A stretch of DNA of 22,208 nt from a virus, in the IMG/VR virus record IMGVR_UViG_3300005748_000419, positions 1 through 22,208 of that record; one strand, 5' to 3'. The translations under genes were made by a program, and so were the position numbers. Position 1 is the first letter of the stretch. Every line of letters begins with the position of its first letter. This document shows, in pieces, positions 3,463 through 20,631 of the stretch. A model generated the notes under the pieces. It was given only the letters and a program-made list of their open reading frames with translations, searched no databases and was not told the origin of the DNA.

Positions 3463-3470
3463 TATTTATA
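3463..3470 (-). promoter_or_regulatory. T4-type late promoter octamer
   Basis: The minus strand reads TATAAATA, a perfect match to the T4 late consensus, 8 nt before the ATG at 3454. It overlaps by four bases an identical octamer on the plus strand (3467-3474), so two late units fire in opposite directions from one 25-nt gap. Confidence 0.65.
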
Positions 3471-3474
3471 AATA
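3467..3474 (+). promoter_or_regulatory. T4-type late promoter octamer for Nudix-SOD operon
   Basis: The plus strand reads TATAAATA, a perfect late consensus, ending 5 nt before the ATG at 3480. It predicts that the Nudix, basic protein and superoxide dismutase genes are expressed late, with virion proteins. No Shine-Dalgarno intervenes. Confidence 0.65.
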
Positions 3475-3479
3475 CTTAT

Positions 3480-3869
3480 ATGTCTTCACCTAATTTTACT
3501 AAAGAAAGCGAACGCTCAGTTAATGACTCGTGTATTTCAGCAAAAACTATAGCAATTTACATGGGTAAATTATTACTTCTACAGAATAAAGATGGTACGT
3601 ATGAACTACCAGGCGGTCATATCAAAGTAGGAGAGGATATATTAACTGGTGCGAAGCGTGAATTTAAAGAAGAGACCGGGATAGATATGGTACCAGTGCG
3701 TATTCTCAGCAAAAAAACGAAAAGAGTAATTTTTTACAGTAAAATTAAATCGAGATTTATAAAATTAAGCCACGAACATGTAGGTTTTAGATTCGTTGAT
3801 ATAAATATGGTATATAGCTTGAGACTAAGTAAAAAAGCTTACAAAGACTTACTCCTTTTTAAAAAATGA
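3480..3869 (+). CDS. Nudix hydrolase
   Basis: 129 aa with a complete Nudix box, G46-x5-E52-x7-R60-E61-F62-x-E64-E65-x-G67-I68. The family hydrolyses nucleoside diphosphates linked to another moiety, using divalent metal held by the Glu residues of this box. The substrate (damaged nucleotide, ADP-ribose, NAD, capped RNA) cannot be read from the sequence. The first ~20 residues precede the usual first strand (KTIAIYMGKLLLLQN) and could be a short extension. The gene overlaps the next by ATGA (3866-3869) and starts an operon ending in a superoxide dismutase. A late octamer lies 5 nt upstream. Confidence 0.9.
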   Translation: MSSPNFTKESERSVNDSCISAKTIAIYMGKLLLLQNKDGTYELPGGHIKVGEDILTGAKREFKEETGIDMVPVRILSKKTKRVIFYSKIKSRFIKLSHEHVGFRFVDINMVYSLRLSKKAYKDLLLFKK

Positions 3870-4066
3870 ATTCATTTATACAATTTTTTTCAGAAAACTA
3901 TGCCGACGGTAAAAAGAAGGGTAAGAGTAAACCAGGTAGAGTTAAGAGAGCCGGAGCTAGTTGTAAAGGTTCGGTTACCGAACTCCGTAAAAAAGCTAAA
4001 AAATACGGTGGTGAAAAAGGTAAGATGTACCATTGGTGTGCAAATATGAAAGGTGGTAAGAAATGA
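3866..4066 (+). CDS. small basic Cys-containing phage protein, possible packaged protein
   Basis: 66 aa, strongly basic. After an N-terminal segment (MNSFIQFFSENYADG) comes a Lys-rich core with KPGRVKRAGASCKGSVTELR and a C-terminal MYHWCANMKGG. I recall this core in other marine phages, without a known function. C33 and C58 with H56 could bind metal or form a disulfide; this is inference. The first ten residues have the pattern M-x-S-F-x-x-aromatic-aromatic-x-E, like the lysozyme-like protein at 19850 and T4 internal-protein leaders, so the protein may be packaged in the head beside DNA. It overlaps both neighbours by ATGA. Confidence 0.75.
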   Translation: MNSFIQFFSENYADGKKKGKSKPGRVKRAGASCKGSVTELRKKAKKYGGEKGKMYHWCANMKGGKK

Positions 4067-4683
4067 ACTATGATAAGTTAGCAGATTTAATTCTAGAAGA
4101 GGTAGGCGGTTATAAGCCAGTAAAACTACCATACGCATTTAATGCGTTAGAACCTTATATTGATGAGGAGACAATGAAGCTCCACTATAATAAGCATTAT
4201 AAGGGTTATGTACAAAAATTAAATAATGCTATAGGTGTATCACAGCCTCCTTTAGAAGAATTAATTAAAAAGACCGGTAATAAAAAAGCCGCTGTTCGTA
4301 ATAATGCAGGAGGAGCTTATAATCATCAACTTTTCTGGAATATGATGACACCTAATAGACATCCAATTAGAGGCAATATAAAAGATGCTATCGAAAAGAA
4401 GTATAAAACAGTAGAGGGCTTCTATAAAGAATTTACAGAGCAAGCTAAATCACACTTCGGTTCAGGGTGGGTATGGCTTGTTAAGAGGGATAATACATTA
4501 AAAATTGTACAGACAGACAATCAAGATAACCCGCTTATGTTTGATCAAGGTACTCCTATCTTAGGAATTGATGTATGGGAGCATGCATATTATAAGAAGT
4601 ACGGACCGGATCGAGAGAAGTATATCAAGCAATTCTTAAAAATTGTTAACTGGGATTATTGTAATCTTCAATTAGAGCAATAA
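4063..4683 (+). CDS. sodA: Mn-type superoxide dismutase with N-terminal leader
   Basis: 206 aa, Fe/Mn superoxide dismutase, converting superoxide to peroxide and oxygen. Metal ligands are all present: H41, H88, D170 and H174 (DVWEHAYY). H45 and the active-site Tyr (Y49) are conserved. Gly at 84 and Gln at 154 (NQDNPLM) are the pattern of manganese rather than iron enzymes. The family domain begins at about residue 18 (KPVKLPYAFNALEPYID); the preceding 17 residues (MNYDKLADLILEEVGGY) are extra. This leader matches the start of the basic protein at 20388-20618 at L6, D8 and I10-L11-E12 and contains an [LI]xE motif like T4 prohead protease sites. It is last in a late operon, overlaps the upstream gene by ATGA, and its 3' end overlaps the nuclease gene on the other strand by 38 nt. 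Confidence 0.93.
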   Translation: MNYDKLADLILEEVGGYKPVKLPYAFNALEPYIDEETMKLHYNKHYKGYVQKLNNAIGVSQPPLEELIKKTGNKKAAVRNNAGGAYNHQLFWNMMTPNRHPIRGNIKDAIEKKYKTVEGFYKEFTEQAKSHFGSGWVWLVKRDNTLKIVQTDNQDNPLMFDQGTPILGIDVWEHAYYKKYGPDREKYIKQFLKIVNWDYCNLQLEQ

Positions 4684-6504: not shown

Positions 6505-7293
6505 ATGTCAAAGATTGGTATAGGTATTATAACATGTAACAGAAATGAGTTTTTAGCAAACTGCGTTAAGAGTATTGCTCCGGAGTGGTATGATGAGTTA
6601 ATTATTGTTAACGATGGTGATAAGCCTATTACAGCATTTTACGAATGTGAAGTAATTAATAATGGTCAAAATATAGGTGTATGCAAGAGTAAGAATAAAG
6701 CGCTTAAAGAGCTACTGGATAGAGATTGTGATTATGTATTCCTAGTGGAGGATGATATGAGATTTAAAGGGAATGCTTTTGACGAATATATTAAAGCTAG
6801 TGCAATTACCGGTATACAGCATATGTCCTTTGCTTACCATGGACCAGCTAATAAAGGTAATATTAGTAAGGGAGAGCCAAAACCGAGAAAGGTAATTGAT
6901 TACGGGGATGTTAAAATTGCCTTAAATCAACATTCAGTTGGAGCGGTATGTTTTTATACAAAAAAATCTTTAGAAGATGTAGGTATATTTGACGAAGATT
7001 TCGATAAAAATAATTTCGAGCATGTTGAACATTCATATAGATTAGCAAAATCCGGTTACAGTACACCTTACTGGTGGTGGGCTGATTTAGCTAATAGCTG
7101 TGATTTTATTGAAGAGCAAGCTTGTAGTGAAGAGTCTTCCTCTATAAGGAGAGGAGATGACTGGAAACAGAAGATAATTGATAGTGCATATATTTTTCAA
7201 AAGAAGCACGGTTATATGCCAGCTTGGCAGAATGCCGTCCCGGATACTAGTATTAATGATATTGTTAAGTTTCTTAAGAAAATTAAAAAATGA
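6505..7293 (+). CDS. GT-A fold glycosyltransferase (GT2-like)
   Basis: 262 aa. The N-terminal half is a GT2 nucleotide-sugar domain: strand IGIGIITCNR (4-13), VNDGD (35-39), NIGVCKSKNKAL (56-67) and the metal-binding VEDDM (81-85). After the DxD-like site are a segment for the acceptor (AYHGPANKG, 110-118) and FDEDFDKNNFEHVEHSYRLA (about 164-184), typical of GT2 enzymes that end with E-D/E-H and a basic residue. It has no membrane segment, so it is cytosolic. It is the first gene of the long glycan unit and overlaps the next by ATGA. Donor and acceptor are unknown. Confidence 0.88.
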   Translation: MSKIGIGIITCNRNEFLANCVKSIAPEWYDELIIVNDGDKPITAFYECEVINNGQNIGVCKSKNKALKELLDRDCDYVFLVEDDMRFKGNAFDEYIKASAITGIQHMSFAYHGPANKGNISKGEPKPRKVIDYGDVKIALNQHSVGAVCFYTKKSLEDVGIFDEDFDKNNFEHVEHSYRLAKSGYSTPYWWWADLANSCDFIEEQACSEESSSIRRGDDWKQKIIDSAYIFQKKHGYMPAWQNAVPDTSINDIVKFLKKIKK

Positions 7294-8021
7294 AAATCTC
7301 TCTTTTATGCCCTAGCCGTGAAAGGTTAAATAAGTTTATTACTTTCACCAGCAGTGTTTTTGCTACTGTTAATAATATTAATAATGTCGAGATAGTGTTA
7401 GGTGTCGATGATGATGATTCGAAAATTGACTCATATAAGCGAATCGCTAAAAATCTTAATTTTGTAACTCTCATAGTCTTTGAAAGTAAGCTGTTTAAAG
7501 AAGAAGGCCTCTCAGGATTATGGAATATAATGGCAGATAGATGTACTGGTGATATTATCTCAATGGTAGGCGATGATATGATCTTCAAAACAAATGACTG
7601 GGATAAAAAGATTATTGATACATTCCAACAACAAAAAGATAATATACATCTTATACACTGCAATGATGGTATGAGAGGCCCAGGCAATAAATACGCTGCT
7701 GTTGAACCGTTAGCTGTTAATTCATTTATACATAGAGATTATGTAGACGCTGTTGATAGGTACGTTCAGACTGAAGAGCCTAATATATTCCAAGACACAT
7801 ATCTAGATACTCTTTTTAAAGCGTTAGGTAGAAAAATATATTATCATGATATAATGATAAAGCATTTACATTTTTCTGAAGGAGGTACTAAAGATACGAC
7901 GTCGGAAAGATTGGAAGAAACTCGTGTAGGTATATGGGATAATAATGATTTGTTTAAGAGAAAGTTAGCTCCTGTAATGCAAAAAGAAATAAAAATATTA
8001 GAGGGTATAATTAAAGGATGA
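7290..8021 (+). CDS. GT-A-like glycosyltransferase
   Basis: 243 aa. It has the GT-A pattern ISLLCPSRERL (3-13), an acidic GVDDDD (38-43) and VGDDM (93-97), the likely metal and nucleotide-sugar site. Further on come HCNDGMRGPG and QDTYLDTLFKALGRKIYYHD, the latter like the C-terminal acceptor/base region of GT2 relatives. The family is more divergent than the first gene, so the donor sugar is not predictable. It overlaps both neighbours by 4 nt (7290-7293, 8018-8021), so translation is probably coupled. No membrane segment is seen. Confidence 0.8.
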   Translation: MKISLLCPSRERLNKFITFTSSVFATVNNINNVEIVLGVDDDDSKIDSYKRIAKNLNFVTLIVFESKLFKEEGLSGLWNIMADRCTGDIISMVGDDMIFKTNDWDKKIIDTFQQQKDNIHLIHCNDGMRGPGNKYAAVEPLAVNSFIHRDYVDAVDRYVQTEEPNIFQDTYLDTLFKALGRKIYYHDIMIKHLHFSEGGTKDTTSERLEETRVGIWDNNDLFKRKLAPVMQKEIKILEGIIKG

Positions 8022-8680
8022 AAATATATACACACTATAGTGACTCTCATAGAGACTTATATGAAAACTATTTCAAAAAATCGATTAGAAATCTATATAC
8101 AGAAGATGAGCTGATTATAAGATCTGCTTGTCATAAACAGACAACCCAAGCTGGTAAGTTTATGGAACAAGGTTGGCTCGAATCAATGAAGTACAAGCTT
8201 CAGGTGATTCTACAAGCTATAGAAGAAAATAAAGATGAGTATTTTATCTTTTCTGATGTCGATATATATTACTATGATAGATTTTTAGATGATTTAGTTG
8301 AAAGTGTACAGGGTTACGATATTGCATGTCAGGAAGATTGTGGTACATTGTGCGCTGGGTTTTTTATCGCAAAAGGTAATGATAACGTTAAGAATTTATT
8401 TGAGGAAGTATATAGAACATTCACTACATTAGTAAATGATCAAGTTGCTTTGAATCACCATAAAGATATGGTCAATTTCAAGCTTCTCGATAAAGAAAAG
8501 TATTACACTATAGGTAATTTCTTTAATAATAATGACGGTACTCATATCTGGGATAATAGTTCAAATATTAACCCTCCCGCTAATATGCTAATACATCATG
8601 GTAATTATGTGCAAGGAGTAGATAATAAGATAAATTTAATGCAAATGATAAAAGCTAATTATGAAAATCTGGTACGATAA
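8018..8680 (+). CDS. nucleotide-diphospho-sugar transferase (GT77-like)
   Basis: 220 aa. It carries FSDVDIYY (78-85, a DxD site), CAGFFIAKGN (112-121), NDQVALN (140-146) and MLIHHGNYVQGVDNKINLM (190-208). These are the marks of the Nucleotid_trans (GT77-like) family, whose known members add galactose, arabinose or xylose in other organisms. The phage donor is unknown. The C-terminal His pair with the downstream Gly-Asn is the usual metal/diphosphate site in this fold. It overlaps the preceding gene by ATGA and the next by 20 nt. Confidence 0.82.
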   Translation: MKIYTHYSDSHRDLYENYFKKSIRNLYTEDELIIRSACHKQTTQAGKFMEQGWLESMKYKLQVILQAIEENKDEYFIFSDVDIYYYDRFLDDLVESVQGYDIACQEDCGTLCAGFFIAKGNDNVKNLFEEVYRTFTTLVNDQVALNHHKDMVNFKLLDKEKYYTIGNFFNNNDGTHIWDNSSNINPPANMLIHHGNYVQGVDNKINLMQMIKANYENLVR

Positions 8681-10100
8681 AACGCAAATAGATCTCGAGG
8701 ACTTTAAGTCGGAGAAGTTCTTATTACTGCCTCTATATAGTAAAGACGTTATAGATACAGATAAAGACTTTATTGGTAATAAATGGTCAGAAAGCATTAA
8801 ATCAAATGTTGAGTATACATCAATTGAAGAGGCAGATTTTATTATATATCACGACAAATATTGTGGTGATATTATATCGTTTACACGGCAAGTTCAAGGG
8901 TATAACCATAAGCCAATATTAGCGTTTTTTAATGATGATAATGATAAACCTATAGGTGATACCTTACCGGATAATGTATACGTATTCAGAACATCTATTA
9001 ATAAATCTAAGCAGAAGCTTAACGAGTTTCCTATGCCGGCTTGGAGTTGCGATTTTGGGGTATCTGATATACGATCACTTAGATTAAAGCCGGTAGTTAG
9101 CTTCTGTGGAGCGTTAACTCACTCAACCAGATCTGAATGCGTTAAAACTCTCGAAAATAATGTAGATATTGATACAAATTTTATTATTAGGAGTTCATTC
9201 TGGGGAGGTAGTCCTCATAATTCTGATCTACGTAGGGAGTATATAGACAATATGAAGGGTAGTGATATGGTTCTATGTTGCAGAGGCGCTGGTAACTTCT
9301 CATACAGATTATATGAAGCGTTATCTTGCGGTAAGATTCCGATTATAATTGATACCGATATATTGTTACCTTGTAGTAATATAATCGACTGGAATAGATT
9401 TATCATTACAACACCTAAAAATATTAATCACGATATCAAAGAATGGTGGAGTAATATCGATGAGGATTCATATATAGATATTCAAAAATATAGTAGATTT
9501 ATATATGAGCAGTATTTAAACCCAGCAGGGTTTTCAAAGTACATCTCTACTTACAATACATTTAAAACATGGATTCGTTCATCAGGAATGGGTTTATATG
9601 AGTTATTCAAAGATAAAGGTCCTATCAAGGGTATAGAGATTGGCTGTTATGAAGGTGTAAATGCTACATACTTACTTGAAACGTTACCGGAATTACAATT
9701 AACAGGGGTGGATCCATATGATACCTACATTGATTGGAACGGGTTAAATGTTGATTACAATCAAGGTGAATTTAAATTAGCTAAAGATAAGATAGAACAG
9801 GTTAAATATAAATTCTCCAGATTCAATATTATCGAACGTACATCTGACGATGCTGTTTCAGAGTTTGAAGATGAGAGTGTTGACTTTGTTTTTGTTGATG
9901 GTCTTCATACATATGAGCAAACTCTACAGGATTGTATTAATTATTTACCTAAAGTTAAACCAGGTGGTATTATATGCGGGCATGACTATAATGTCATTTC
10001 AGGTGTAACCAAAGCTGTTGATGAATTTTCATCTCTACATAAAAAATCTGTGATGGCCCTGAGAAGTTCAACAAGAGCTTGGTATTGGGTAAAGGAATAA
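8661..10100 (+). CDS. exostosin-like glycosyltransferase fused to methyltransferase
   Basis: 479 aa, a two-domain protein. Residues about 1-300 are exostosin (GT47)-like, with VVSFCGALTHSTR (145-157) and the signature CCRGAGNFSYRLYEALSCGK (206-225) followed by IPIII. Residues about 310-479 are a class I SAM-dependent methyltransferase of the Methyltransf_24 type: GIEIGCYEG (324-332, SAM loop), VDPYD (350-354), VDGLHTYE (412-419) and GGIICGHDY (435-443). The fusion suggests one enzyme that adds a sugar and methylates it or the chain end. The start overlaps the previous gene by 20 nt. The next gene begins 1 nt after its stop. Confidence 0.85.
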   Translation: MKIWYDKTQIDLEDFKSEKFLLLPLYSKDVIDTDKDFIGNKWSESIKSNVEYTSIEEADFIIYHDKYCGDIISFTRQVQGYNHKPILAFFNDDNDKPIGDTLPDNVYVFRTSINKSKQKLNEFPMPAWSCDFGVSDIRSLRLKPVVSFCGALTHSTRSECVKTLENNVDIDTNFIIRSSFWGGSPHNSDLRREYIDNMKGSDMVLCCRGAGNFSYRLYEALSCGKIPIIIDTDILLPCSNIIDWNRFIITTPKNINHDIKEWWSNIDEDSYIDIQKYSRFIYEQYLNPAGFSKYISTYNTFKTWIRSSGMGLYELFKDKGPIKGIEIGCYEGVNATYLLETLPELQLTGVDPYDTYIDWNGLNVDYNQGEFKLAKDKIEQVKYKFSRFNIIERTSDDAVSEFEDESVDFVFVDGLHTYEQTLQDCINYLPKVKPGGIICGHDYNVISGVTKAVDEFSSLHKKSVMALRSSTRAWYWVKE

Positions 10101-10101
10101 C

Positions 10102-10941
10102 ATGATTAGTTTTTTTGAAGATATTTTTAAATATGAAAAGTTTCCAACAGAGTATGAATGTTACAAGACTCTTGCAGGCTTTTCAAATTATGTCGCGGTT
10201 CCATGGACTCAGATTTTAAACAGTCACTGGTTGAGATTCCCTGGTAATATAGGCCGTGATTCCTTTCTAAAAGAGATAAGCAAGTATAAAATACAAACAA
10301 AAAATAACTTTACAGTATGTCAGCATGACAGCTTCAAGCAGCTCGAATTATACTTTAAGCATCTGAATATTACAAAAGTATTCTGTACGTTACATAGTGT
10401 AAATGATACTATGCAAGGCATCGACCTGATACCTATATCCTTTGCGTTTAATGATATCTTTGATCATAACGCCAAGAAGGATATATTGGTTTCGTTTATG
10501 GGAGCATATACAACTCACCCGATTAGAGGTATATTAAAGAATAATATTATAGGCGATACATTTATATATCGTGATACCTATCATGTAGAAGATTTAAATC
10601 AAAATAAAGAAAAGGAAGAAGAGGAGTATAAAGATATGTTAGAACGTTCTATCTTTAGTTTATGCCCACGCGGTTCATCTCCTTCTGCTGTAAGATTCTG
10701 GGAGTGTTTATCAGCCGGTACAATACCTATTTTAATGAGCGATGAATGGGCTTTACCAGACTGGGACTGGGATAATACTATAGTACGAATACCTGAACGA
10801 GAGGTTAGCAATTTAGATAATAGTAAATTAGACGCCTTACTCTCATCTCTTGATCATGTAGCTATGAGAGAAAAATGCTTACAAGCATATAATAAATTTA
10901 AAAAACAAAATTTTAGAGAGTATATCCAATATCACTTATGA
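10102..10941 (+). CDS. exostosin-like glycosyltransferase
   Basis: 279 aa. The C-terminal half has the GT47/exostosin pattern: VSFMGAYTTHPIR (130-142) and SLCPRGSSPSAVRFWECLSA (186-205) followed by GTIPILM, then acidic and Trp-rich DEWALPDWDWDN, as in the donor-binding half of GT-B-like exostosins. The first ~110 residues are divergent and would contain the acceptor side. It is a paralogue of three other exostosin-like domains in this unit. It overlaps the fucosyltransferase gene by ATGA. No signal peptide or membrane helix is seen, unlike eukaryotic exostosins. Confidence 0.83.
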   Translation: MISFFEDIFKYEKFPTEYECYKTLAGFSNYVAVPWTQILNSHWLRFPGNIGRDSFLKEISKYKIQTKNNFTVCQHDSFKQLELYFKHLNITKVFCTLHSVNDTMQGIDLIPISFAFNDIFDHNAKKDILVSFMGAYTTHPIRGILKNNIIGDTFIYRDTYHVEDLNQNKEKEEEEYKDMLERSIFSLCPRGSSPSAVRFWECLSAGTIPILMSDEWALPDWDWDNTIVRIPEREVSNLDNSKLDALLSSLDHVAMREKCLQAYNKFKKQNFREYIQYHL

Positions 10942-11702
10942 GTGTTATAGTACAGTATGACCCGGCAGGTAGAATGGGTAATAGAATGTTTCAATATGCG
11001 TTTGGATATATATTATCCAAACTTAAAAACTGCGAATTCTTTTACGGTGATTTACCTAACTTTAATATTAAAGGAAATTTATATACGAGTAGATTTAATA
11101 AACCCATTACTACAAGAAGTTTTGGTAATCAATACGTAGACATGGAATCTCTAATCGACCACGACGGAGATATAATTGTTAATTCTTTTCTACAAAAAAG
11201 CAGCTTGTATGTTGATTATAGAGACGAGTTGAGAGCGCTTTTTAATATAAAATCAGATATAATTAATAAAGATGATTTAGTAGTTCATATTAGAGAAACT
11301 GATTATACTCTAGTTAATGCATTTTTAGGCTACGATTTTTATAAAAGCTTAATTACTAGTAGTAAATTTGACAATGTAATAATTGTTACTGATAACTCAA
11401 ATTGCGAAACCGTAAAAAGGCTTATTGATGATGGATGTATGCTTAGCACGGAAGGTGTTGTTAATACTTTTAAAGTCTGCAGTGATAGTAGAGGTATGCA
11501 AGATTTCAATACACTAATGTACAGTGAAAATATAGCTATCTCACAATCTAGCTTTTCATGGTGGGCAGCTTTTCTAGGTAACCATAAACAGATCATATTT
11601 CCATTTAAACGCGATACTGACTGGTGGCCTATATCTCCTGATAAAGATGATATTGATCTATACTTTGATTTTAATAATATATCACGTAAGTATATTGTAT
11701 GA
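10938..11702 (+). CDS. GT11 alpha-1,2-fucosyltransferase-like
   Basis: 254 aa. It shows the GT11 motifs: GRMGNRMFQYA (11-21, usually GRLGNQMFQYA), HIRETDY (117-123, equivalent to HxRRxDY, with Glu-Thr in place of Arg-Gly/Arg), VTDN (150-153) and SSFSWWAAFLG (204-214). The family transfers fucose from GDP-fucose to galactose. No GDP-fucose synthesis genes lie in the window, so donor would come from the host or elsewhere in the genome. The altered second residue of the HxRR motif may shift activity. It overlaps the next gene by ATGA. Confidence 0.88.
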   Translation: MSVIVQYDPAGRMGNRMFQYAFGYILSKLKNCEFFYGDLPNFNIKGNLYTSRFNKPITTRSFGNQYVDMESLIDHDGDIIVNSFLQKSSLYVDYRDELRALFNIKSDIINKDDLVVHIRETDYTLVNAFLGYDFYKSLITSSKFDNVIIVTDNSNCETVKRLIDDGCMLSTEGVVNTFKVCSDSRGMQDFNTLMYSENIAISQSSFSWWAAFLGNHKQIIFPFKRDTDWWPISPDKDDIDLYFDFNNISRKYIV

Positions 11703-12430
11703 AAACAAGTACTTCCGATGATAATGTGTACCCTGCTTTTTGTGAACTGGCATCAAAAGATGATAATGTATTTAAGGTATTTAAAACATCATCTGCATAT
11801 ACTGGTATTCTAGAACATGTAAGTACGGAAGAAGGCCAGCAGTATTTTAATCACTTTAAGTCAAACAAAGATATTATGTACCATCTAGATAAATTTAAAA
11901 AGAATGATGAGATAGGTGGTTCGAATATTATTAAATATAGTTTTGGTGAATTCAGCCCGACTACCTTAAGATATATAAAGGTACTTTCAGATCTATCTCA
12001 ACTTAAATTGGACGGTATGGATATAATAGAAATAGGCGCTGGATATGCTGGTCAGTATACAGTATTACGTCAATACGCTAAGCCTAAATCATATACAATT
12101 GTAGATTTACCTGAAGTAATAAAACTACAGAAAAAATATATTAATCGAAATGGTCTAGATGATATTGAAGTTAACTTTTATAGTCTAAACAACTTACCAG
12201 ATCTCTGCGGAGATTTAGTTATAAGTAACTACGCCTTCTCTGAGTGCGTAACTGCAGTACAAGATATCTACATTAAAAAAATTATTAACAACTGCAAGAG
12301 GGGGTATATTATTCATAATAATTTTGAGGGGCATGACCATACTATGCTTAAAGATATTTTATCGCATAAAGTGAATGAGTTTAAGGAGATACCGCAGACG
12401 GCTCCAAAAAATGTATTATTAACCTGGTGA
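11699..12430 (+). CDS. putative sugar O-methyltransferase (NanM-like)
   Basis: 243 aa. A class I methyltransferase: EIGAGYAGQY (111-120) is the SAM-binding loop, VDLPEV (135-140) the second acidic site and VISNYAFSEC the fourth strand. The arrangement SPTTLRYIKVLSDLSQL before the loop is that of the putative sugar O-methyltransferase family found in bacterial surface-polysaccharide clusters. It probably methylates a sugar made by neighbouring enzymes. It is flanked by fucosyltransferase and GT32 genes and overlaps both (ATGA upstream, GTGA downstream). Confidence 0.82.
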   Translation: MKTSTSDDNVYPAFCELASKDDNVFKVFKTSSAYTGILEHVSTEEGQQYFNHFKSNKDIMYHLDKFKKNDEIGGSNIIKYSFGEFSPTTLRYIKVLSDLSQLKLDGMDIIEIGAGYAGQYTVLRQYAKPKSYTIVDLPEVIKLQKKYINRNGLDDIEVNFYSLNNLPDLCGDLVISNYAFSECVTAVQDIYIKKIINNCKRGYIIHNNFEGHDHTMLKDILSHKVNEFKEIPQTAPKNVLLTW

Positions 12431-13197
12431 AGGCAATGAAGGATATGTTACCGGATTTTAATGAATCTATGAAGTTTTCTCTAGATTATAAGTCTAAAGA
12501 AAAGGTAGATAAATGGGATATATTAATTAATAGATATAACGAGTTTAAATCAAGTAATAACTCTAAATCCATTATACCTAAAATAATACATCAAGTCTGG
12601 GTCGGCCCGAAGATGCCTGATCTCGAAACTAAACTTACTACAGATATACGCTCTAATATAAATCCTGATTGGGAATATGTAATGTGGGGAGATGATAATA
12701 TCAAGCAGTTAAAATATCTAGATTTTGATCTATATAATAGATTAGGTAAGACAAAAAGTGGTGTAGCAAAACAAGCAGATCTTATTAGATACGCTGTTCT
12801 CTTTGAATTCGGTGGAGTATATATAGATACAGACTTTATTATACATACTAATTTTAATAGATTTTTAAGTCTAGACTCATTTATAGGCATTGCGTATGAT
12901 AAAGAACCTACTATCTTCAACGGCTTAATTGGATGTATACCAGGATCTAAATTTTTAGAGTCTCTTTTAGTTTTAGATAGTAGCATTGAAGGAGATGTTC
13001 TTAACGTTACCGGTCCATGGTTTGCTACACGGCGATTATTTCAAAATATAGAGATCGAAAATGTAGTAGCTTTTCCTTGTTCTTTCTTCTACCCTTTCCC
13101 GAATTTTCAACGATCTAGATCGCTAGGTAATGATTATACGGCGTATATTCAAGATGAGAGTGTCTGCACTCACATGTGGTCTTCTTCATGGATGTAA
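12427..13197 (+). CDS. GT32 (DXD) glycosyltransferase
   Basis: 256 aa, with the GT32/Gly_transf_sug signature IPKIIHQVWVG (50-60), WEYVMWGDDN (82-91), and ADLIRYAVLFEFGGVYIDTD (117-136), whose DTD is the metal-binding site. The C-terminus has VTGPWFATRRLF (about 193-204) and a Cys-Thr-His end (VCTHMWSSSWM) as in OCH1/capsular relatives. These enzymes use mannose, galactose or other donors; the donor here is unknown. The GTG start at 12427 gives a GTGA overlap with the upstream stop; an in-frame ATG at 12436 is an alternative. The protein is soluble. Confidence 0.87.
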   Translation: MKAMKDMLPDFNESMKFSLDYKSKEKVDKWDILINRYNEFKSSNNSKSIIPKIIHQVWVGPKMPDLETKLTTDIRSNINPDWEYVMWGDDNIKQLKYLDFDLYNRLGKTKSGVAKQADLIRYAVLFEFGGVYIDTDFIIHTNFNRFLSLDSFIGIAYDKEPTIFNGLIGCIPGSKFLESLLVLDSSIEGDVLNVTGPWFATRRLFQNIEIENVVAFPCSFFYPFPNFQRSRSLGNDYTAYIQDESVCTHMWSSSWM

Positions 13198-13200
13198 ATT

Positions 13201-14055
13201 ATGTTAAATTATATTTCAGGTGAAAAGTTACAAGAGTTAATAGAGTTAACGGTTATTTTTGAAGATCAAAGGCACCCGGATCTTTGGCAAGCTCAATTAC
13301 CTAATACTAATTGTGATCATATAATACTTAGAAACGACGAACCTATACCGGAGAAGGTATTACATGCAAAATCGCTATTTGTGTATACACACGCTCTTGA
13401 TTTATTTTTCTCTAGAGTATTCCCGTATATTAAACATCCAATTATACTGATGTCGCATAATTCAGATTGGGGGATAGATAACGGTATGTATGACTGCTTC
13501 TTAAATAGCGGTAAAATTATAAAGTGGTATGCACAGAACGTAAATCATAATCATGATAAGCTAATACCTTTACCGATAGGTATTGCAAACTCACAGTGGG
13601 AGCATGGTAATTTTAATAATATCTTAGAAGTTATATATCAACAAAATACTAAAACTAAATTGGTTTATAATAATTTCAATTGCTCGACGTCGCCCGGGCA
13701 CCGGTCATATATTGAGAGAGTTTTAGAGGCAAATAACATACCTCGCGATCCGCCCGTAGATAGTAGAGTGTTCTTAAGCGAGCTTTCGAAATCAAAATTC
13801 TGCATATGCCCATTCGGAGCAGGGTATGATTCGCATAGAATATGGGAAGCCTTGTATCTAAATACTATACCAGTCGTTCCGCGCTGTGTAGGATTTGAAA
13901 AATTTAGAAGTTTACCAATATTATTAATAGACGACTGGAGCTCCGTTGATGTCAATTTTCTAAACAGCGCTGTAGATAAAATTAAATTATCAGATTATGA
14001 TATGAACCCTTTACGTATTGAGTATTGGAAGGATGTTATTGATAATGAAATGTAG
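13201..14055 (+). CDS. exostosin-like glycosyltransferase
   Basis: 284 aa. Residues 199-218 (KFCICPFGAGYDSHRIWEAL) plus the following YLNTIPVV are the strongest match to the donor-binding signature shared by the exostosin-like enzymes here. HNSDWGI (86-92) and PLPIGIAN (123-130) are other conserved points of this type. The gene starts 3 nt after the previous stop. It is likely part of the same transcript, followed after 17 nt by another paralogue. Its substrate is unknown. Confidence 0.78.
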   Translation: MLNYISGEKLQELIELTVIFEDQRHPDLWQAQLPNTNCDHIILRNDEPIPEKVLHAKSLFVYTHALDLFFSRVFPYIKHPIILMSHNSDWGIDNGMYDCFLNSGKIIKWYAQNVNHNHDKLIPLPIGIANSQWEHGNFNNILEVIYQQNTKTKLVYNNFNCSTSPGHRSYIERVLEANNIPRDPPVDSRVFLSELSKSKFCICPFGAGYDSHRIWEALYLNTIPVVPRCVGFEKFRSLPILLIDDWSSVDVNFLNSAVDKIKLSDYDMNPLRIEYWKDVIDNEM

Positions 14056-14072
14056 TATGGTAAATATGTTAT

Positions 14073-14930
14073 ATGATAGGAATTATAGCAACTGATGATT
14101 TAACTATTGTTGGGCATAGTTTATTTAAAAATTTTAGACTTGGACTACAAAATTATTTTAATCAAAATCTTATCAATATAAGATCGGTTCATGATCTAGA
14201 TAATATTGATATTCTGTTTATTGTGGATGAACATTTCGCTCCCAATGTGGATATATGGAAAAACGATACATTTATCAACAAGGTTAATTCAAAAAAAATT
14301 AAGACAGTTGTATTTAACTTCGAAAAGATATTCAGTAGTAAATTCCCGTGGAATGAAGATCATCAACGTGTATTAACACAAATACAGGATCTTATACAGA
14401 TTGTATCAGATGTAAATGACGCTAACAAATTAAGTAAAGAGATTATTAACAAGCAGCTACTTTCACGTGATACAGAGCTAGAATTTGATATTACAGAAAA
14501 GAAAAATAGAATACTCTTTATAGGTCAATCTGATAAGATATATAATCCGTCATATGCATACTCTAGAAGATATCAGCTGCTTAATAAACTATCAGAAAAT
14601 AAATCTCTACCAATTGATATAGTGGTAACGGATAGAAAATTTACATATAAAGAATATCTAACAAAACTGGCTAGTTATAAATTTATTCTAAACCCTCTCG
14701 GTACTGGAGATTTTTTAAATTTAAGATTTTATGAGACATTAAAGGTGGGTAGTATACCTATTCAACAGATAACACCAGACATGCAATCTATGTATAGAGA
14801 GTTAGATTTCTGTCATACATTTACAAATGCTGATGATCTATATATACCTGAAATTGAATTTAAGCAATTAGATTATTATCTAGAAGATTATTTTAATGAT
14901 ATAAATTTAAAATCATTACTAATAAAATGA
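14073..14930 (+). CDS. exostosin-like glycosyltransferase (divergent)
   Basis: 285 aa. Residues 203-222 (KFILNPLGTGDFLNLRFYET) with LKVGSIPIQQ are the signature shared with the other three exostosin-like domains. RILFIGQSD (146-154) is the preceding core strand. The N-terminal 140 residues are divergent and carry no motif I know. It begins 17 nt after the previous stop, the longest gap in this unit, and overlaps the last gene by ATGA. Assignment to a glycosyltransferase rests mainly on the motif and the context. Confidence 0.7.
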   Translation: MIGIIATDDLTIVGHSLFKNFRLGLQNYFNQNLINIRSVHDLDNIDILFIVDEHFAPNVDIWKNDTFINKVNSKKIKTVVFNFEKIFSSKFPWNEDHQRVLTQIQDLIQIVSDVNDANKLSKEIINKQLLSRDTELEFDITEKKNRILFIGQSDKIYNPSYAYSRRYQLLNKLSENKSLPIDIVVTDRKFTYKEYLTKLASYKFILNPLGTGDFLNLRFYETLKVGSIPIQQITPDMQSMYRELDFCHTFTNADDLYIPEIEFKQLDYYLEDYFNDINLKSLLIK

Positions 14931-15547
14931 ATACAGTTTTAATATTATCATATACAAAAGATATAGCATACTACAATATGCTTAAAGAATGTATAGAATC
15001 TATAGATGCAGATTGTGATATAGTTGTAGTTGAAACTAATTCAAAGCTCAAAGGTAAAGATATTAAACTACCTGCTCAGTTTATATTTCCAGAAGAAGAG
15101 TTTAATTATAATAGATTTTTAAATATTGGATTCTCTCATATTAGAGACAGTAAAAAGGTTATTATATCAAATAACGACGTCGTATATAGTAAAGGGTGTA
15201 TTGAAAAACTATTCAAATCATTAGATATCTACGACTCGGTCAGCCCCTCTGAGACAAAAATGGAAAAAAATATTGAAGGTAATACTGTCGGTAAACTCGT
15301 TAAAGGTTGGTGTATTGGTCTTAGTATAGAAGTATATAACAAGATGGGTGAGTGGGATGAGAATTTCTCATTCTGGTATCAAGACAATGATTACTGTAAT
15401 TTCATTTCTAGAGAAAAATTTAAACATTGTTTAATAGGAGATGCTGTAGCAGTACATAGAATATCTGCAAGTCATGGTCTCGTTAGCAATATACATGAAA
15501 TGACACATGGACTCGAAGATGTATTGCATGCAAAGTGGGTTAAGTAG
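14927..15547 (+). CDS. GT2-like glycosyltransferase
   Basis: 206 aa, short for the family. It has VVVET (33-37), FNYNRFLNIGF (59-69), SNNDVVYS (81-88, equivalent to the DxD site), CIGLSIEVYNKMGEWDENF (129-147) and FWYQDNDYC (149-157). This is the pattern of GT2 rhamnosyltransferase-like enzymes, in which the last acidic residues act in catalysis. It ends the eleven-gene unit; no terminator is visible in the following 41 nt, where the next promoter lies. Confidence 0.83.
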   Translation: MNTVLILSYTKDIAYYNMLKECIESIDADCDIVVVETNSKLKGKDIKLPAQFIFPEEEFNYNRFLNIGFSHIRDSKKVIISNNDVVYSKGCIEKLFKSLDIYDSVSPSETKMEKNIEGNTVGKLVKGWCIGLSIEVYNKMGEWDENFSFWYQDNDYCNFISREKFKHCLIGDAVAVHRISASHGLVSNIHEMTHGLEDVLHAKWVK

Positions 15548-18212: not shown

Positions 18213-19841
18213 ATGATAAGCCATTTTTTAGCTAACTTCCCGGAGAATTTTAAACCTAACGATCAGCAGGTTAATATTATTCAGCAAATCGAAAAGGCGT
18301 TTAACAGCGGTAGTAAATTTGTTATATGCAGCGCACCTACAGGTTCTGGTAAGAGCTTTGTATCAAAAACATTAGCGAACGTCTCAAGCGATCCAACTGC
18401 AACATTTAAAAATTATATTAATACGTACGAGGCGTATAAAATGGATCAAGCAGGTTCATATACATACGAACAAGAATGTAAAGATGAACTACCTGCAGGG
18501 GCATTTGCATTAACAATCACTAAAACATTACAGGATCAGTATAAGAGTATATTTGAAGATACAGCTATACTTAAAGGTAAATCTAATTATCAATGTGAGG
18601 TAGATCCTAATTATGATGTTGATACTGCACCTTGTATACATACAAGGCATATAAGAGATGATTGCTGGCGTAAAAATATCTGCCCGTATTATAACGCACG
18701 TAATAACTCCCTAACAAGTAAATTTAGCGCGTTGAATTATAATATGTTTTTGGCTTTACCAAACCATGTTAAATATAGGGATTATATTATTTGTGATGAA
18801 GCATCGGAGTTAGAAGATGAAATAGTTAAGCAATTCTCAGCTACTATTGATATTAAAAAGCTTCGAGCATTTAAGGTTAAAATCTTCCCCTTATCATCTA
18901 CTTCACCAGCTACCGTTAGAACTTGGATCAATACAATTCGTGCAGAGGTAACAGAGCATATGAATGATCTTCATAATAATATGAAGAAGAAAGCAGGTCT
19001 AACTCAGAGCGAAAAGGGTAAGTTACAGTATTTAAAAAATATACATAGAACGTTAACTCTAATTGATGAAACATGGGAAACATGTGAGTATGTCGTACAG
19101 GTAGTAGATAGAGATAACATAAAGCTTACACCTCTTAAAGTTAATACATTAACCAAATATATCTTTCAATACGCTGATAAGGTTTTATTAATGTCAGCTA
19201 CTATTATTGATCATAAAAATTTAGCCAAAACGTTAGGTATCACTGATTACGAATACATTGAGTCAGATAGTGGTTTTGATCCTGCGAAAGCACCCATTTA
19301 TATTTCTCAAACAAATAAATTAAATCATGCTAATCTCCAGAAGGCTCTACCTTCTATAGTTAAGCAGATTGATGCTATATGTGAAAAGCATAAAGACGAG
19401 AAGGGGATTATACATACACATACTAATAGTATAACAAGCTTTATTAAGAATAATACAAATAGCAATAGATTTCTATATAGAGATCAAATGAATAAGAATG
19501 AAGATATTCTTGATATGCACGAAAAATCTCAGAATCCTACTGTTCTTGTTAGCCCATCTCTTGGCCTTGGTGTGGATCTTAAAGGCGATTTAGCAAGGTT
19601 TCAAATTATCGTAAAAGCAGCCTATTTACCTTTAGGTGATGATAGAATTAAAAAAATGTTCAATCAAGATAAACAATGGTACACAAACAAGATGCTTTCA
19701 AATTTTATACAGCAGTGTGGTAGAGGTATTAGAAGTAAAGATGATCATTGTGTTACATATGTTTTAGACGCAAATATTTTTAATGCTGTTATACGTAATA
19801 AGAGCAAACTACCAAAGTACTTTCTCGAGAGGTTCGTATAA
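18213..19841 (+). CDS. XPD/DinG-type superfamily 2 helicase with Fe-S cluster
   Basis: 542 aa. Motif I is APTGSGKS (41-48), motif II DEAS (195-198), motif III LMSAT (326-330) and motif VI QQCGRGIRS (500-508), the order of Rad3/XPD/DinG helicases. Four cysteines between motifs I and II (C128, C141, C151, C157) match a 4Fe-4S cluster of that family. It should unwind DNA 5' to 3' using ATP. A role in phage replication, recombination or repair fits the nearby nrdA and nuclease. Its own promoter is sigma70-like. The stop codon lies inside the late octamer of the next gene (19837-19844). Confidence 0.88.
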   Translation: MISHFLANFPENFKPNDQQVNIIQQIEKAFNSGSKFVICSAPTGSGKSFVSKTLANVSSDPTATFKNYINTYEAYKMDQAGSYTYEQECKDELPAGAFALTITKTLQDQYKSIFEDTAILKGKSNYQCEVDPNYDVDTAPCIHTRHIRDDCWRKNICPYYNARNNSLTSKFSALNYNMFLALPNHVKYRDYIICDEASELEDEIVKQFSATIDIKKLRAFKVKIFPLSSTSPATVRTWINTIRAEVTEHMNDLHNNMKKKAGLTQSEKGKLQYLKNIHRTLTLIDETWETCEYVVQVVDRDNIKLTPLKVNTLTKYIFQYADKVLLMSATIIDHKNLAKTLGITDYEYIESDSGFDPAKAPIYISQTNKLNHANLQKALPSIVKQIDAICEKHKDEKGIIHTHTNSITSFIKNNTNSNRFLYRDQMNKNEDILDMHEKSQNPTVLVSPSLGLGVDLKGDLARFQIIVKAAYLPLGDDRIKKMFNQDKQWYTNKMLSNFIQQCGRGIRSKDDHCVTYVLDANIFNAVIRNKSKLPKYFLERFV

Positions 19842-19844
19842 ATA
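19837..19844 (+). promoter_or_regulatory. T4-type late promoter octamer
   Basis: A perfect TATAAATA ending 5 nt before the ATG at 19850 and overlapping the helicase stop codon. It predicts late expression of the lysozyme-like protein. Confidence 0.65.
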
Positions 19845-19849
19845 ATATT

Positions 19850-20401
19850 ATGCAGACGTTTAAAGAGTACTATATTGAAGAAGGTAAGTTAGGTAAAGCT
19901 TTAGCGATGGGAGCATTAGCTACATCCTCTCTATTCGGAGATTTCGTACAAGATTGGTCGAAATATTATCAAACTAGTAACGATCCTCAGAAAGAAGCTC
20001 GAGCTACAAAAGTATTAAAAGCCGATATTGAAGCACCTGCAGATGCTAAAACGGCAATACAGGTAGCTGCAAAGATTTTTGCTGGTGATGAAGGTCATAC
20101 AGAGCAAGAATTTATTGATGTTTTAATAAAAACAGGAGCTGTAGAATCTGGTTACCGTACAAGAGTGCAGAGTGGTGGTGGGCCTGCTAGAAGTTATTGG
20201 CAAGTTGAACCTAAAACTGCTATGAGTCTGGTTAAGAATTCTCATCAATATTTTGGACCTAAATTTCATAAAGCGTTTGGTAAAGATGCATTAAAAAGAT
20301 TACAAGATTATGACGAGAAAGCTTGGTCTAATATTTTAGAGAAGAATGATGCATTAGGAGCTACAATGGCAGCTGCAAAATGGTTATCTACTTCTTGGTA
20401 G
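19850..20401 (+). CDS. virion lysozyme/transglycosylase-like protein with internal-protein leader
   Basis: 183 aa. Residues 98-117 (VESGYRTRVQSGGGPARSYW) followed by QVEP hold the glutamate of the lysozyme/transglycosylase fold (E99), with a GGGPAR-type loop known from phage virion lysozymes. Cleavage of peptidoglycan on DNA entry would be the role. Residues 1-13 (MQTFKEYYIEEGK) look like the leader of T4 internal head proteins (M-x-T-aromatic-x-E), with I9-E10-E11-G12 matching the [LI]xE-G site of the prohead protease. Residues 15-30 are hydrophobic. The protein ends soon after AAAKWLSTSW, and I expected a longer C-terminal part, so a shortening is possible. It converges on a gene that overlaps its last 14 nt. 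Confidence 0.72.
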   Translation: MQTFKEYYIEEGKLGKALAMGALATSSLFGDFVQDWSKYYQTSNDPQKEARATKVLKADIEAPADAKTAIQVAAKIFAGDEGHTEQEFIDVLIKTGAVESGYRTRVQSGGGPARSYWQVEPKTAMSLVKNSHQYFGPKFHKAFGKDALKRLQDYDEKAWSNILEKNDALGATMAAAKWLSTSW

Positions 20402-20618
20402 ATTTCTTCTTACGCTTTGGTAACTTAATAAACAGCGTATTCATCTTACCGCCAGGTTGCCCTTTAAATCCGCTAATAGCTTTAGTGCTATGAGGTTCAT
20501 TTAATTGAGGGTTGACTGTACCAAATTTACCGCGCGGTTTAACTTTACCTGGGCGCTGAACATCTATAGGTATACGAAAATCTTCTAATATATTATCAAC
20601 TAGGCTATTGAATTTCAT
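20388..20618 (-). CDS. basic protein with capsid-targeting-like leader
   Basis: 76 aa, not recognised. The N-terminus MKFNSLVDNILEDFRIP shares L6, D8, I10, L11 and E12 with the leader of the superoxide dismutase, and contains an ILE-D site like that used by T4 prohead protease. The rest is proline- and glycine-rich and very basic (PGKVKPRGKFGTVNP, then a KRKKKSTKK end), suited to contact with DNA. It starts 5 nt after the late-type AATAAATA on the minus strand. A packaged DNA-binding protein is my inference. It converges with the lysozyme-like gene and overlaps it by 14 nt. Confidence 0.65.
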   Translation of the reverse strand: MKFNSLVDNILEDFRIPIDVQRPGKVKPRGKFGTVNPQLNEPHSTKAISGFKGQPGGKMNTLFIKLPKRKKKSTKK

Positions 20619-20625
20619 ATAAATA
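20618..20625 (+). promoter_or_regulatory. T4-type late octamer (plus strand)
   Basis: TATAAATA on the plus strand, overlapping by two bases the minus-strand AATAAATA. It ends 12 nt before the ATG at 20638. The TATAAT at 20631-20636 is a second candidate box for the same gene, closer to the start, so the real driver is uncertain. Confidence 0.4.
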
Positions 20626-20631
20626 TTTATT
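20624..20631 (-). promoter_or_regulatory. T4-type late promoter octamer (variant)
   Basis: AATAAATA on the minus strand, one base from the late consensus, 5 nt before the ATG at 20618. Confidence 0.5.

Follow-up and report, generated by a model that had tools for sequence, protein, structure and literature searches.

The superoxide dismutase locus

The window, which is the whole of the 22,208-base virus record and is without further contigs, comes from a marine T4-like bacterial virus. It carries a gene for a 206-residue superoxide dismutase (SOD) of the Fe/Mn family (Table 1). The Pfam domain PF00081 (Sod_Fe_N) is matched from residue 19 and PF02777 (Sod_Fe_C) to residue 200, both above the cut-off. 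The metal ligands His41, His88, Asp170 and His174 (three His and one Asp) do not vary in an alignment of 20 phage SODs. The closest solved structure is a manganese SOD (E = 1e-53). Gln154, which we take to occupy the Mn-type Gln position, is only suggestive of manganese use. The cellular Mn/Fe SODs (SodA/SodB), the nearest of which is 51% identical, share the fold family, the four metal ligands and the Mn-type Gln, but they lack the leader described below and the phage SODs form a distinct clade. The enzyme has no SOD family match in PHROGs and no relative above 48% in INPHARED, where several of the SOD matches resemble host DNA inside phage records.

Table 1. Features of the window discussed in the text, with positions on the 22,208-base record
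Feature	Position	Strand	Basis or remark
Late-type box TATAAATA	3467..3474	+	13 nt before the Nudix-like start at 3480; likely promoter of Nudix-basic-SOD
Nudix-like gene, first in the run to SOD, no leader	3480..3869	+	ORF; family by inspection only
66-aa basic protein, leader MNSFIQFFSE, T4-type (F4, F7, F8, E10)	3866..3895	+	Homologue junctions
66-aa basic protein, basic domain NYADGKKKGKSKPGRVKRAGASC...	3896..4066	+	Overlaps SOD start by 4 nt
SOD ORF	4063-4683	+	206-aa Fe/Mn SOD
SOD leader, residues 1-12, MNYDKLADLILE; proposed capsid-targeting propeptide	4063..4098	+	Conserved in phages, absent from cellular SODs
Predicted mature SOD, putatively Mn-type, residues 13-206 with stop	4099..4683	+	Pfam PF00081/PF02777, invariant ligands, PDB match
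Late-type box TATAAATA	19837..19844	+	13 nt before the 'lysozyme-like' gene
183-aa 'lysozyme-like' protein, leader MQTFKEYYIEE, T4-type; proposed cut E11/G12	19850..19882	+	Conservation in relatives
183-aa protein, body, all-helical	19883..20401	+	PHROG 3108, function unknown
76-aa basic protein, body	20388..20582	-	ORF
76-aa basic protein, leader MKFNSLVDNILE, SOD-leader type	20583..20618	-	ILEDF conservation
Late-type box NATAAATA	20624..20631	-	13 nt before the 76-aa gene

The original prediction assigned late-type promoter boxes to the genes of both SOD and the 76-residue basic protein. The latter does have an (N/T)ATAAATA box 13 nt upstream, as has the lysozyme-like gene, but SOD has no box of its own and is the third gene of a run that begins 13 nt past the box at 3467. 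The Nudix-like, basic and SOD genes would then form one operon. The number of TATAAATA copies was discarded as promoter evidence (seven against 7.9 by chance in the AT-rich window) and only the spacing of 13 nt is informative. Sites with this spacing lie at 3467-3480, 19837-19850 and 20631-20618. In G001 (IMGVR_UViG_3300029787_005452), a related contig of 185 kb, 12 of the 24 boxes with an ORF, genome-wide, have the exact arrangement TATAAATA-N5-ATG; the same scan of T4 gave a 13-nt spacing for 0 of 23, the range being 21-60. Given T4-type initiation, transcription of such late genes would start at the AUG, giving leaderless mRNAs with no space for a Shine-Dalgarno site. By eye, from the ORFs, we noted about ten glycosyltransferase-like and methyltransferase-like genes in a block (6505-15547) that separates the SOD region from the late genes.

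The SOD leader and its conservation

The N-terminal extension of SOD must be translated because no ATG, GTG or TTG lies in frame between the ATG at 4063 and the domain; with a stop codon in the same frame just 5' of this ATG, a start-site artefact is ruled out. About the first 15 residues are an addition, since Sod_Fe_N starts at residue 19 and the nearest cellular SODs typically begin 3-6 residues before the LPxLPY stretch, which bears out the extension originally placed at the first 17 residues. In the predicted structure most of the core has a pLDDT above 90. Residues 1-13 are not part of the confidently folded region (residues 1-10 average a pLDDT of 49), and the leader is weakly predicted, at low confidence, as a lone short helix. 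Its reported likeness to the N-terminus of the 76-residue protein (MKFNSLVDNILED) is exact at L6, D8, I10, L11 and E12, and I10-L11-E12 fits the L/I-x-E site that had been recognized in it.

We found 35 SOD loci in IMG/VR, and a profile search confirmed at least 590 phage SOD candidates, the best 80 of which were kept. Among 22 distinct phage SOD leaders, from relatives down to 53% SOD identity, the only residue identical throughout is Glu12, the glutamate expected at a gp21 cut, and it is encoded by both GAG and GAA. Position 3 is aromatic in all 22, positions 9 and 10 are aliphatic (or Met or Phe; position 10 is Ile, Leu, Val or Phe) and the residue following Glu12 is variable. None of the 80 nearest cellular SODs, which reach 51% identity at most, has a leader of either of the patterns defined below. 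The expected difference between phage and bacterial enzymes is therefore observed, 22 of 22 against 0 of 80. No leaderless close homologue came to light: wherever the start could be read, the SODs examined, down to 53% identity, all carry the leader. This conservation is stronger evidence for the leader than the pattern enrichment given below.

The propeptides of T4 internal proteins comprise 10-19 residues and bind the prohead core, after which gp21 cuts following L/I-X-E; in IPIII residues 4 and 7 are the most important for targeting and 8 and 10 for processing (PMC9026906). The SOD leader, at 12 residues, is within this range. The leaders of T4 IPI, IPII, IPIII and Alt, each a CTS (capsid-targeting sequence) cut by gp21, are of the same kind: short and N-terminal, with aromatic residues, hydrophobic residues and L/I-x-E. 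The spacing differs, with positions 4, 7, 8 and 10 in IPIII corresponding to 3, 6, 9-10 and 12 in the SOD-type leader, which is two residues longer. We read the SOD leader as a variant CTS because its layout is that of the T4 propeptides, except that the aromatic and hydrophobic residues sit at other positions and the cut would fall after residue 12.

Other leaders, the protease and the capsid genes

A second leader type had also been claimed and is present as described: MQTFKEYYIEE then Gly in the lysozyme-like protein and MNSFIQFFSE then Asn in the 66-residue basic protein. These two have aromatic residues (Phe4 and Phe/Tyr7) at the targeting positions 4 and 7, as does IPIII; the SOD and 76-residue leaders have an aromatic residue 3 and Leu6. 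The leader of the 183-residue protein stands, but its identity as a lysozyme is unconfirmed. Lysozyme and transglycosylase enzymes occur among the top PDB fold matches, none of them significant, and neither fold nor sequence gave a significant PDB match. Residues 1-26 lie outside its predicted fold, and Glu11-Gly12 is kept in relatives even where Glu10 is changed (MQTFKEFHIKEG). In the 76-residue protein ILEDF is kept in most relatives, which were found only at loci of this phage group.

The junction in homologues of the 66-residue protein was sought with a pattern that permitted Glu, Asp or Gln before N[FYLA]. Glu immediately precedes it in 59 of 59 distinct sequences, whether a leader or a whole domain lies upstream, and the residue two before this Glu (P3) is hydrophobic in most. 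A tblastn search of INPHARED at 1e-5 gave no match to the 66-residue protein. The basic domain, ENFADGKxKGKSRPGRVKRAGASC, also occurs as a C-terminal module with Glu at the joint at five loci and others, and its partners, judged by eye, are as diverse as ParB-like, GNAT-like and nucleotidyltransferase-like domains.

We scanned N-termini with two patterns, A for the SOD type and B for the T4 internal-protein type. Both are short and owe part of their design to the proteins under study, and enrichment is clear in some contigs only. A Shine-Dalgarno-weighted gene caller missed the starts of the window SOD and the lysozyme-like protein, and longest-ATG calls were used instead. Pattern A, informed by SOD and the 76-residue protein, is matched by two of 40 window genes against 0.15 on shuffling (p ~0.01). 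In G001 six of 234 N-termini match it, where shuffling of residues 2-20 gives 0.70 (p <= 0.0005); the real set is smaller than six, since at least two of these matches look unrelated to packaging. Pattern B has six matches in G001 against 0.94 (p <= 0.0005), and T4 under the same scan yields IPII and IPIII. Further leader-bearing proteins, for which a genome-wide search had been proposed, are thus found above shuffling in this relative. One small family has a differing leader per copy with a constant cut: TILE/SLWANINKKKK, QLVE/SLWANINKKKK and TILE/GLWANINKKKK. Leader-like starts were also seen on enzymes, namely an ATP-dependent zinc protease-like protein (G001 70730-71161; MITFKKFFE/S), a protein with DUF6267 and a cytidylyltransferase-like part (G001 85210-87207; KVLLE/FFD) and a HAD-like protein (G012 11725-12657; TLLE/GRKLRVFDFDDT).

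The window, a fragment of 22 kb in which the protease is not to be expected, contains no protease or capsid gene. A gp21-type prohead protease, on whose presence the original prediction depended, is found in related long SOD-bearing contigs. Peptidase_S77, the gp21 family, is present in six of 18 such contigs and five of 16 others from IMG/VR, where an incomplete contig could explain a missing match. Two cultured jumbo phages whose SODs are distant have it as well, against 0 of 14 control genomes. Seven of the 11 S77-positive SOD contigs, G001 included, have a leader-form SOD. In G001 the S77 protease, a scaffold-like gene and gp23 stand in a row, and early cut sites can be picked out by eye in the protease (LIVE/T), the scaffold-like protein (ILSE/A) and the capsid propeptide (CLNE/A).

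In most close relatives, as in the window, the SOD gene and the stop of the preceding basic gene share 4 nt. In G010/G011-type phages (three loci) it lies 83 nt 3' of gp23 and in the separate L025 lineage 138 nt 3' of gp23, a neighbourhood that adds support for packaging beyond that of the original prediction. The nearest cultured capsid relatives are cyanophages and other T4-like phages, with gp23 only about 32-34% identical.

A superoxide dismutase as candidate head cargo

Our analysis supports, with good probability, the idea that the 12-residue leader is a capsid-targeting propeptide, akin to those of the T4 internal proteins, by which a Mn-type SOD is loaded into the head. That the leader is a CTS and is cut seems likely on the sequence evidence, and so, to a like degree, does the presence of SOD in the mature virion: with an enzyme that bears a removable tag of the kind that loads T4 heads, the virus probably has SOD in its particle and does not just produce it inside the cell. 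SOD would be made late, along with the small basic protein, and its leader would bind the scaffold core of the prohead. A gp21-type S77 protease would then cut after I-L-E, leaving the freed Mn-type SOD in the head during DNA packing, and the virion would carry it beside several small, mostly basic proteins with the same two leader types. It would most likely enter the cell with the DNA and clear superoxide before phage gene expression. The predicted set of head-packed, injected proteins is favoured by the leader conservation, the S77 protease and the extra leader proteins; late synthesis, scaffold binding, cleavage, carriage in the virion, injection and early action are events that we infer.

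In T4, foreign enzymes fused to a CTS reach the host cell (PMC9026906), and internal protein I enters by injection and acts against a nuclease of the host (PMC3012670). The SOD phages are alike in that their relatives have an S77 protease and a scaffold-like gene and in that unrelated cargo lies behind a shared leader. They differ in that the putative cargo is a metabolic antioxidant enzyme. A folded SOD dimer would need to pass the tail as a monomer or unfolded, and we lean only slightly towards SOD acting mainly after injection. An enzyme that is packaged and cut could instead work in the free particle, where in sunlit water it would guard the packaged DNA and the proteins of the head against oxidants, with injection incidental. 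The same sequence evidence fits this and the relatives are environmental viral contigs, but SOD alone yields peroxide and we noticed no leader-bearing catalase-type partner; the precedent of internal protein I, which acts after injection (PMC3012670), also points the other way, and we regard a function in the free particle as rather unlikely.

Readings without packaging fare less well. The short helix predicted at low confidence for the leader, and the basic gene that usually adjoins SOD, would suit a helix that anchors SOD to, or pairs it with, another phage protein such as the basic protein in the infected cell. This seems improbable, given that the leader is retained where gp23 is the neighbour instead, is common to unrelated proteins and has as its sole identical residue in 22 sequences the very glutamate at which gp21 would cut. 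It is very improbable that the extension is a peculiarity of a single phage SOD lineage and resembles other leaders by coincidence, even though the motif is short and all of the SOD leaders come from one family. Against this stand the conservation of particular positions down to 53% identity, with Glu written in synonymous codons, the shuffling test, and unrelated proteins in which leaders vary around a constant Glu (TILE/SLWANINKKKK, QLVE/SLWANINKKKK).

Many of the best 80 among at least 590 phage SOD candidates are parts of fusions with other domains, and L/I-x-E-type sites mark the joints. Of the more distant phage SODs, 31 of 34 distinct sequences have h-x-E, usually LITE/MKKIGIEKLPYSY, directly before the SOD domain, and in 34 of 38 long ones the stretch joining SOD to a C-terminal domain contains [LIV]-x-E, followed closely by a Cys. 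The latter has no Pfam match; by eye it contains a GGxDA...QIKPF motif of nuclease type. At six loci and others, SOD is either fused to a C-terminal domain with such a motif or follows a domain that is metallopeptidase-like (HExxH). Since such sites flank the SOD domain in larger proteins and some of these contigs (four) also carry S77, we suggest tentatively that tailed phages may widely carry SOD as head cargo, which the prohead protease would cut from a packaged polyprotein, although we consider this doubtful.

Two viral SODs invite comparison. The Cu/Zn SOD of chlorovirus PBCV-1 (a245r) is, in the relevant passages of PMC7019647, the product of a late gene, packaged in the virion and proposed to lower superoxide during infection. 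It is likewise a viral SOD in a particle, the location of the phage SOD here being inferred, but it belongs to an unrelated enzyme family and a eukaryotic virus, and those passages describe no gp21-type leader for it. The SOD-like protein EST35_0261 of Pseudomonas phage PA5oct, only 25% identical to the SOD of the window, has I-A-E/A near its N-terminus, and the phage genome encodes an S77 protease. Its record carries an ESI-MS/MS detection note, which we set aside as virion evidence; the note is silent on location because non-structural enzymes (ribonucleotide reductase and thymidylate synthase) bear the same mark. PA5oct is a cultured jumbo phage and a possible laboratory test system.

SOD as a phage CTS cargo appears to be new; among open-licence papers we found no report of a CTS-bearing SOD in a bacteriophage. 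If our interpretation is correct, a phage delivers a ready-made antioxidant enzyme along with its DNA, and an 'auxiliary metabolic gene' would act from inside the particle, before gene expression. It would be a natural T4 CTS system with a metabolic enzyme, where the T4 literature describes engineered fusions. The leader patterns would amount to a sequence rule for head cargo, making the injection cargo of phages testable at scale from genomes.
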